A stretch of DNA of 64,000 bases from Aquisphaera giovannonii (GTDB lineage Bacteria; Planctomycetota; Planctomycetia; Isosphaerales; Isosphaeraceae), in contig NZ_CP042997.1 of NCBI RefSeq assembly GCF_008087625.1, positions 2,728,001 to 2,792,000 on the forward strand, in the 5' to 3' direction. The position numbers were made by a program, and so were the translations under genes. Of the stretch, positions 20,359-53,479 are shown piece after piece. Numbering within the stretch: position 1 is the stretch's first letter; every line of letters begins with the position of its first letter. The notes under the pieces are model-generated. The model was not told the DNA's origin, did not search any database, and saw only the letters and a program-made list of their open reading frames with translations.

Positions 20359-20840
20359 GGCCTGGCCCCCGCAAGTTGCCCGAGAGTCCCGGCCGCGCCG
20401 GCGGAACGGCCCTCTCGGGACGTCGCTCGCGTGATCCTAACCCCGCGCAGGATCGGACGCAACGGCGCCCGAAGAGTTGGCATTCCGTCGCCGAGAGGCG
20501 GCCCTGGCTGTTCGGCCCGGCCGGAGCCCGCCGAACGGGATCGGGCTCATGCCAGGTTCCATGGACTCCGGTGCTCGCGTGTCGCCTTCCCCAGGGCCCG
20601 CACAGCGACTAACATTCTGTCCCATAAGCCCGGCGTCGTCGAACCCGGCCCCCTCGGCGCTCCGCGGCAACGGCGAGTGCCGAACACGATTCCCCCCTTA
20701 CGAAGGGGGGATACAGGGGGGTGAATTCGACCGCCTGGGCCTCCGCAATCCGCCCCCTCTAACTGCCCCTTCGTAAGGGGGAGAACCGGACCTTCCTACG
20801 CCCTCACGGAGGCAATTCGAGTGGGCTTGCGGGAAAAAGT
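20359..20840. other. Intergenic region with a 99-bp palindromic repeat
   Basis: This is 482 bases without a gene, between the 91-residue protein and the SpoIIM-like gene, both on the minus strand. Its main content is copy A of the two-copy repeat at 20691-20789. Open frames across it change with the repeat and show no protein character. Confidence 0.6.
20691..20789 (+). repeat. REPIN-like repeat, copy A
   Basis: A 99-bp element. Its left end is CCCCCCTTACGAAGGGGGG and its right end CCCCTTCGTAAGGGGGAGA, so each end is itself a palindrome and the two ends mirror each other. Between them lies about 60 bp with CAGGGGGGT and CCCCCTCT, which can also pair. The same element occurs in reverse orientation at 53283-53381 with the same length and roughly 85 percent identity by eye. 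This is the build of a REP doublet (REPIN) or small non-autonomous element. No transposase is present in the window. Confidence 0.8.
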
Positions 20841-21857
20841 CTAAGCCTCGGCAATTCTTCCCGTCTCCCGGCCGATCTCGTCCTCCGGTGTCCTCCCGGG
20901 GCGGCCGCCCAGGGTCACGTAGAGGAGGATGAGCGCCGCGGTCAGGATGGCGACCGCCGCCTTGGCGGGGTAGGGGAGCGACGAGGCCGAGACGAAGCCC
21001 TCGATGAAGGCCGCGGCGATGAACAGGACGACCGAGGCGCCGAGCGCCGGCAGGGCGTTGGCCGCTTCCCGTCGGAGCGAGGCGATGCGGGTGAGCCCGT
21101 GCGCGTCGATCAGCCCCCATCCCATCCTCAGGCCGGCCGCTCCGGCGAGCACGATGGCCGTGAGCTCGCAGCTCGAGTGGGCCGTGACGAAGGTGAAGAA
21201 GTTCGCCGCGTACGGCGTGGTCGCCATGTGGCCGAACATCGTGCCCAGCCCGATGCCGTTCGAGAGCAGCTGCGCCAGGCTGCCGAGCCCGAAGAGGATG
21301 CCCCAGGCGAAGCATTGCAGGCCGATCGAGGTGTTGTGCCGGATGTAGAAGCCCGCCATCAGCGCGTCATCCCGCCCCATCTCTTCCGAGCCCGGCCCGG
21401 AGAGCGGCCGGGCGTACATGTGATCGATCTGTTCCAGCGCGGCCTCGCCGACCACCTGCCCGGCGAAGTCCGGCCGGGCCGCGGCCGCGAGAGCGCAGAG
21501 CAGGAAGGATCCGAAGAACACGGCGGCCGCAATGCGGAGCGCCGGGTCCGTCCGCAGTCGCCGGGGCGCCGAGTCGAAGAGGGCCCGTCCGAGGTCACGG
21601 AGCGAGAAGCCGCGCGTCCGATACAGCACGTTATGCGCCCGGCCTACCAGCCCGTGGAGGTACTCCACGGACGCCCGAGGGAGGTCGTGAGCTTCGGCGA
21701 GCATCAGGTCGGCACAGGTGGCGCGATAGAGCCGGCCCAGGCGGAGGACATCCCCGGCAGACGCCCGGCGGGGGCCTGTCCTGGAGAGTCGCTCGACGAG
21801 CCGGTCCAGCTCGCGCCAGTCTTCCTCCCGTTGCCTCAGGCGTTCGCCGACTCGCAT
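20841..21857 (-). CDS. SpoIIM-like (stage II sporulation protein M) membrane protein
   Basis: A 338-residue membrane protein of the SpoIIM/DUF95 family. An N-terminal helical region of about 115 residues (WRELDRLVERLSR; VEYLHGLVGRAHNVLYRTRG) precedes five or more membrane segments: near PALRIAAAVFFGSFLLCALA, IGLQCFAWGILFGLG, GLGTMFGHMATTPYA, HSSCELTAIVLAGAAG and the last two hydrophobic helices. The conserved H-S-x-x-E-L-x-x-I-V motif of the family is present. In non-sporulating bacteria this family appears with RDD proteins in a membrane module of unknown function. The ATG at 21857 lies 7 bases after the RDD gene stop with GAGGG upstream, so the two form an operon. Confidence 0.85.
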   Translation of the reverse strand: MRVGERLRQREEDWRELDRLVERLSRTGPRRASAGDVLRLGRLYRATCADLMLAEAHDLPRASVEYLHGLVGRAHNVLYRTRGFSLRDLGRALFDSAPRRLRTDPALRIAAAVFFGSFLLCALAAAARPDFAGQVVGEAALEQIDHMYARPLSGPGSEEMGRDDALMAGFYIRHNTSIGLQCFAWGILFGLGSLAQLLSNGIGLGTMFGHMATTPYAANFFTFVTAHSSCELTAIVLAGAAGLRMGWGLIDAHGLTRIASLRREAANALPALGASVVLFIAAAFIEGFVSASSLPYPAKAAVAILTAALILLYVTLGGRPGRTPEDEIGRETGRIAEA

Positions 21858-53084: not shown

Positions 53085-53479
53085 GGGTCGGGGCCCTCAG
53101 GGGAATCTTCGGGAGGATGGACCGGGATCTCTCGAGAGACCCGCAGACCGCGGTGGAGAGCCGATCCGGCTCTCCCGTGATGGACCGCGCTGGAGCCAGG
53201 GCCGCCGTGCGCGTCGATGGGAGTTAGAGTCTGTCCCATGAGCGACGCTTCCTGGAAGCCTCGTGAAGAAGGCCGGCCGATCCCGGTTCTCCCCCTTACG
53301 AAGGGGGAGTCAGAGGGGGTGTATCGGTCGAGCCCGAGGCGATCGAACTGACCCCCCTGTATCCCCCCTTCGTAAGGGGAAGCGGATTCGGCCCTCCGCG
53401 ATGACCGGGGCACTCCGATGGAGTCAGGGGCCCCCGGCGCGGGCTTATGACACAGTCAATTAACTTGATCATCCGTCGC
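53085..53479. other. Intergenic region with the second 99-bp repeat
   Basis: This is 395 bases between the TlpA-like start and the glycosyltransferase stop, both on the minus strand. The repeat copy B at 53283-53381 fills its centre. The rest shows no gene. Confidence 0.6.
53283..53381 (-). repeat. REPIN-like repeat, copy B
   Basis: This is the same 99-bp element as at 20691-20789 but in reverse orientation. The ends are CCCCCTTACGAAGGGGGAG and CCCCCCTTCGTAAGGGGAA, each a palindrome. The flanking CCGGTTCT of this copy matches the AGAACCGG at the right end of copy A. The middle is more diverged than the ends, as expected when the palindromes are the selected part. Confidence 0.8.

Follow-up and report, generated by a model that had tools for sequence, protein, structure and literature searches.

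A stretch of 64,000 nucleotides from Aquisphaera giovannonii (the window) carries two copies of a short palindromic repeat that looks like a REPIN. This raises the question of what moves it: is the palindromic doublet itself the mobile unit, moved in trans by a RAYT, or does it travel inside something larger?

Anatomy and copy number of the doublet

The earlier note described two 99-bp copies, at 20691-20789 (+) and 53283-53381 (-), about 85% identical to each other. The sequence confirms both copies and their opposite orientation, with matches in 86 of 101 aligned columns; pairs of 99-bp segments taken at random from the window (n=300) average 53% identity and never exceed 61%. The inverted-doublet layout is also as described, with near-perfect palindromes at the ends of both copies and inverted arms. 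Perfect 9-nt stems lie at 20691-20711 in copy 1 and at 53289-53309 in copy 2, and the arms between the halves measure 35 nt at 74% and 32 nt at 78% complementarity. That the centre is more diverged than the ends is only partly true: across 72 genome copies, conservation reaches 94-96% in the ten-column blocks that hold the palindromes, and one central stretch drops to 76%, but the next stands at 92%. An Rfam search of the window gave 0 matches.

The guess of dozens to hundreds of copies per genome proved right. The core palindrome CCCCTTACGAAGGGG has 107 exact occurrences in 10,526,296 bases (3 contigs), split 56 to 51 between the strands, and the reversed control has 0; at least 66 matches came from a BLAST-type search with a 121-bp query, in which 40 of 194 candidates were scored. 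For a census of doublets we used 1.31 Mb in 77 merged stretches picked around palindrome hits. This sample holds 178 palindromes at up to 2 mismatches and 73 inverted doublets, a count that is not an unbiased one because the DNA was chosen around hits; all but two of the 73 (71) share a spacing of 70-73 nt. One doublet (5799640) lacks 400-bp flanks and was dropped, leaving 72 of 73 for the flank analyses, and tandem or duplicate copies were excluded from the column-profile, stem-length and covariation flank tests. Palindrome sites are dense at 4.5-6.0 Mb, approximately the middle of the contig (14, 9 and 9 per 0.5 Mb, from 78 sites compiled by hand, with a few beyond 9.25 Mb missing).

The doublet has a polarity. 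Half A consists of RATCCGGYTCTC, a hairpin, GAGTYRGA and GGGGGTG; half B consists of CCGGATCCGCTTCC, a hairpin, GGATACA and GGGGGGTG. The column profile puts the core common to all copies at about 119 bp and the family elements measure 229-233 bp, so the 99-bp box falls short of the repeat unit. C- and G-rich steps in the same profile suggested outer hairpins in a four-hairpin element, a candidate that we rejected, as energy, stem length and covariation fail to establish it. The features of the two window copies, both of the F2 type defined below, are as follows, with strand where one is assigned:

20613-20841, minus strand: F2-type MITE copy 1, 229 bp, flank subfamily (4,0); ends and flanking duplications read from the sequence; half A at the high-coordinate end
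20610-20612: copy 1 target-site duplication TAA, left, read from the sequence
20842-20844: copy 1 target-site duplication TAA, right, read from the sequence
20613-20629: copy 1 terminal inverted repeat CATTCTGTCCCATAAGC, read from the sequence; family ends from flank clustering
20825-20841: copy 1 other terminal repeat GCTTGCGGGAAAAAGTC, degenerate, read from the sequence
20678-20796, minus strand: copy 1 core, about 119 bp, containing the 99-bp box; core common to all copies
20691-20711: copy 1 half B palindrome, 9-bp perfect stem
20766-20780: copy 1 half A palindrome CCCCTTCGTAAGGGG
53227-53459 (genome 2781227-2781459), plus strand: F2-type MITE copy 2, 233 bp
53224-53226: copy 2 target-site duplication TTA, left
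53460-53462: copy 2 target-site duplication TTA, right
53227-53243: copy 2 terminal inverted repeat GAGTCTGTCCCATGAGC
53443-53459: copy 2 terminal inverted repeat GCTTATGACACAGTCAA
53276-53395, plus strand: copy 2 core with halves A and B; core common to all copies
53289-53309: copy 2 half A palindrome, 9-bp perfect stem
53365-53379: copy 2 half B palindrome CCCCTTCGTAAGGGG

Ends, target duplications and age of the elements

Homology between copies mostly stops less than 30 nt from the palindromes; in subsets it reaches 60-90 and 110-120 nt, and clustering of the flanks sorts the copies into families. We scored the family ends against shuffled flanks in the 72 doublets. F2 ends (GAGTCTGTCCC.../GTGACTGTCYC...) lie on both sides of 20 of the 72, F1 ends (TTACCCCGGCGAG), which are unrelated to them, on both sides of 8, and F3 ends on both sides of 2. 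Window copy 2, with its TTA duplication, belongs to the 20 F2 copies that have both ends; copy 1 does not, and its F2 assignment comes from the clustering of its flanks and from inspection by eye (TAA on both sides, one end degenerate). In F2, the 3-bp duplication is identical in 11 of 20 copies, compared with 0 of 20 at lengths 2, 4, 5, 6, 8 and 9. In F1, TA is duplicated in 7 of the 8 two-ended copies, with no identity at the other lengths tried; neither F3 copy has a 3-bp duplication. When compared by eye, exact F2 16-mer ends (12 of 12) and exact F1 13-mer ends (22 of 22) all lie beside the core or an interrupted core. The doublet core is common to three MITE families (F1, F2 and F3) with unrelated ends; this is a new MITE set with a common REP-like doublet at its core, and it behaves as MITEs wherever this can be tested.

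We therefore read the window copies, with a probability of roughly 0.8, as non-autonomous MITEs of about 230 bp that are moved in trans by a DDE-type transposase and carry an old REP-like doublet as cargo in their centre. The transposase would act in trans on the ~230-bp element and leave the 3-bp TNA duplication. The centre would be an old inverted doublet (half A hairpin, GAGTYRGA and GGGGG; half B hairpin, GGATACA and GGGGGG) that is now copied mainly as MITE cargo. Given that the same doublet is central to F1 (with TA) and F3 (two copies), whose ends are unrelated, the doublet is probably older than the present ends.

A 3-bp TNA duplication goes with IS5/IS1031-like transposases and a TA duplication with IS630-like ones; by these rules, F2 presumably depends on an IS5/IS1031-like enzyme and F1 on an IS630-like enzyme. 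We infer this transposase type, and likewise the route by which the core gained several kinds of ends. By the same rules, the families are like MITEs of DDE-type insertion sequences (IS5/IS1031- and IS630-like) in their terminal inverted repeats, TNA or TA duplications, length (mostly 229-256 bp) and many near-identical copies. They are unlike known DDE-type MITEs in sharing a REP-like doublet core across families with unrelated ends and in having no autonomous partner among 22 loci: no element with F1 or F2 ends was found within 1.5 kb of 15 DUF4096 (PF13340) and 7 DDE_3 (PF13358) loci.

The youngest units are the MITEs, since core identity is higher inside F1 (up to 0.99) and F2 (up to 0.97) than among the 20 of 72 doublets without shared flanks (mean 0.76, maximum 0.86). 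Between F1 and F2 the mean is 0.77; judged by these identities, the core appears homologous yet old across families. The congener G392 has core matches at at least 25 places, with F1 ends on both sides of 3 of the 13 distinct doublets looked at. Comparison of four sites, those of window copy 2 and of three flankless ones at 4.66-4.67 Mb, shows the element missing from G392 at all four; the intergenic DNA there is too diverged for base-exact junctions or empty sites. Where A. giovannonii has the 4673143 copy, the congener (locus L233, G392:C252 near 22450) has a long, nearly perfect intergenic hairpin instead.

The flankless copies could be old F1, F2 or F3 MITEs with decayed ends, only MITEs having ever moved; we put this at somewhat under even odds. 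Weak F2-like ends beside a few copies (5343330 and 5782389, with 421712 by eye), the low mutual identity of these copies and the C-rich and G-rich steps at a fixed distance outside the core all point this way. However, their flanks exceed the F2-end threshold in only 2 of 40 cases and the F1-end threshold in 0 of 40; with 38 of 40 below the thresholds, many copies stay outside the set supported as MITE-derived. Decay alone also leaves the three kinds of ends and the match in other phyla unaccounted for.

Alternatively, the doublet might be retained because its hairpin is of use, perhaps as a two-way transcription terminator at gene ends, and so outlast the decaying outer parts of the MITE. In 12 of 40 cases an F2 end directly adjoins the stop codon of a reading frame 100 or more codons long, compared with 11.4% in the control (p about 0.001 if the ends are taken to be independent), and the single-strand folds are strong (z -3.6 and -4.9). 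The fair control is a random TNA plus the element end, since the TNA target together with the leading G of the element can itself supply a stop codon; a first control (2.4%) was set aside because the element end itself makes stops. F1 ends abut stops in 0 of 16 cases. Selection against gene damage alone would yield the same stop bias, though, and the conservation of the palindromes is partly built in, since copies were found via the palindrome; mate-swap covariation of the outer stems is not significant (p 0.11). On balance a retained hairpin seems unlikely.

The palindrome is also a target for other elements. Its tip holds a DDE_Tnp_1 insertion sequence, X, together with a short relative, both with an 11-bp duplication of the CCTTACGAAGG type as read from the flanks, and the Tn5-like Z (Tnp_DNA_bind, Dimer_Tnp_Tn5, DDE_Tnp_1) inserts there too. 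Short Y elements (~174 bp), which also enter the tip and resemble Z in their ends, have palindrome halves at both ends in 6 of 7 checked. These counts are not a rate, because the sampled DNA is biased towards palindromes. At one doublet (L094, genome 2153600-2156720) both palindromes are interrupted, one by a DDE_Tnp_1 insertion sequence and the other by a Tn5-like one. We take the tip-inserting elements to be of the IS4 type. Insertion into REPs is already known (Tobes and Pareja 2006, PMC1525189), and the entry of such elements into the palindrome tip is like what that paper describes, although host and palindrome differ.

The half-unit in other genomes

Beyond A. giovannonii, the exact half A 29-mer occurs in 10 stretches in a collection of 84,980 genomes: four from a Poribacteria MAG, one from a Planctomycetota MAG and five from Patescibacteria (including Andersen- and Uhr-). 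In some of these stretches the half-unit is paired with another kind of half B, either head-to-head or tail-to-tail, and in two a lone half-unit forms part of a gene's reading frame. The in-frame half-units belong to Patescibacteria MAGs (L143, 1414-2769; L142, 2752-4374), with the peptides TPSNSPFVRGR and LPLTKGELEGV; one of the two open reading frames we take to be UvrC. Such in-gene half-units recall the palindromic elements found inside Rickettsia genes.

Closer to home, the palindrome is present in 7 of 45 genomes of the family and in 6 of 392 genomes of a phylum sample, both counts including A. giovannonii itself (G000). Facing hairpins are separated by 34 nt in G400, and the distance in G404 is 95 nt; the single match in G402, in coding-like sequence, looks like chance. 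Searches of plasmid and viral collections for the palindrome gave no match, and among the papers of the library searched none contains the letters of the palindrome or the encoded peptides.

Because the doublet core occurs in three MITE families and exact copies of its half-unit turn up in both Poribacteria and Patescibacteria, the half-unit acts as a REP of wide distribution would, carried here by DDE-type MITEs. In a bolder version, the half-unit (hairpin, TTAG-type linker and second G run) would form a REP superfamily that spans phyla and has a mobilising enzyme of its own. It would have repeatedly entered unrelated DDE MITEs and given them their common core, making the MITEs carriers of REP doublets; we regard this as an improbable extension.

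Y1 transposases and the separation of doublet and mover

The REPIN interpretation in the earlier note survives in part: the inverted palindromic doublets, their high copy number and the half-unit singlets and doublets in other bacteria stand, and linkage to a RAYT and the expected tag do not. RAYT-type genes are indeed present, with 7 Y1_Tnp matches in the genome, 6 above the curated cut-off. We did not find the core palindrome within 1.5 kb of any of the 7 loci. Among nine other genomes, eight have Y1 matches (54 in total), and at 30 of these 54 loci, in eight genomes and with 1.5 kb on each side, the palindrome flanks the gene in 0 of 30. With up to 3 mismatches allowed, stray strings appear at L181, L189, L198 and L200, which we read as chance, and one linker-like string at L187. 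No GTAG or CGTC tag was seen beside the hairpin in the aligned copies, where the linkers are GAGTYRGA and GGATACA. One MAG in which a gene contains the exact half-unit (L142, G437) gave no Y1 match, MAGs being incomplete. Since RAYT linkage and tag were both looked for and neither was found, membership among the REPINs is not established.

Several of the genome's own Y1 genes carry different repeats of their own. The RAYT-type gene at L014 (near genome 5139599) lies between inverted arrays of CCCCGTGGGAGCCGGCTCCGTCCGGCGACCGGG, and with these flanks it is a better REPIN candidate for the A. giovannonii genome. The Y1 genes at L015 (4903236) and L013 (511168) have flanking GTAG-bearing hairpin repeats (GTAGGGTGGGTC... 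and TTTTGTAGGGTGCGTC), and the one at L010 (8354732) lies between long terminal inverted repeats, GAAAGGGTGTCAGGAACCGAT, resembling the TIR-flanked RAYTs described in PMC3733652.

A true REPIN family, in which a RAYT moves the doublet in trans and the doublet landed by chance inside several MITEs, would fit the high-copy inverted doublets, the singlets and both doublet arrangements elsewhere, the 20 copies without shared flanks and the presence of Y1 genes, but is an unlikely reading given the Y1 loci without the palindrome, the missing tag, the half-unit-bearing MAG that gave no Y1 match and the age of the flankless copies (core identity at most 0.86). Signs of recent movement are instead seen in terminal-inverted-repeat elements carrying 3-bp or TA target duplications, and they point to ordinary cut-and-paste transposases as the movers, not to the REPIN enzyme.

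Compared with the REPINs of Bertels and Rainey (2011, PMC3116915), the MITE-borne doublets are alike in their inverted palindromes, high copy number and a centre partly less conserved than the palindromes; they differ in having no RAYT association that we could find, no GTAG tag and an enclosing unit with target duplications. A further parallel is in PMC3733652, where the REP dimers of A. variabilis GTAG-15 and H. neapolitanus CGTC-1 are regularly embedded in larger palindromic sequence. A REP dimer lies within a larger sequence here too; unlike in those cases, the larger sequences are three kinds of terminal-inverted-repeat elements with duplications, and there is no tag.

In sequence, the mobile unit and a REPIN-like doublet can look alike, and here the two are separated. 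In this case, calling REPINs from palindromic doublets alone would have pointed to the wrong mover. The common core in MITEs with unrelated ends, together with an identical half-unit in distant phyla, poses a testable question: how REP-like sequences spread without a linked RAYT.
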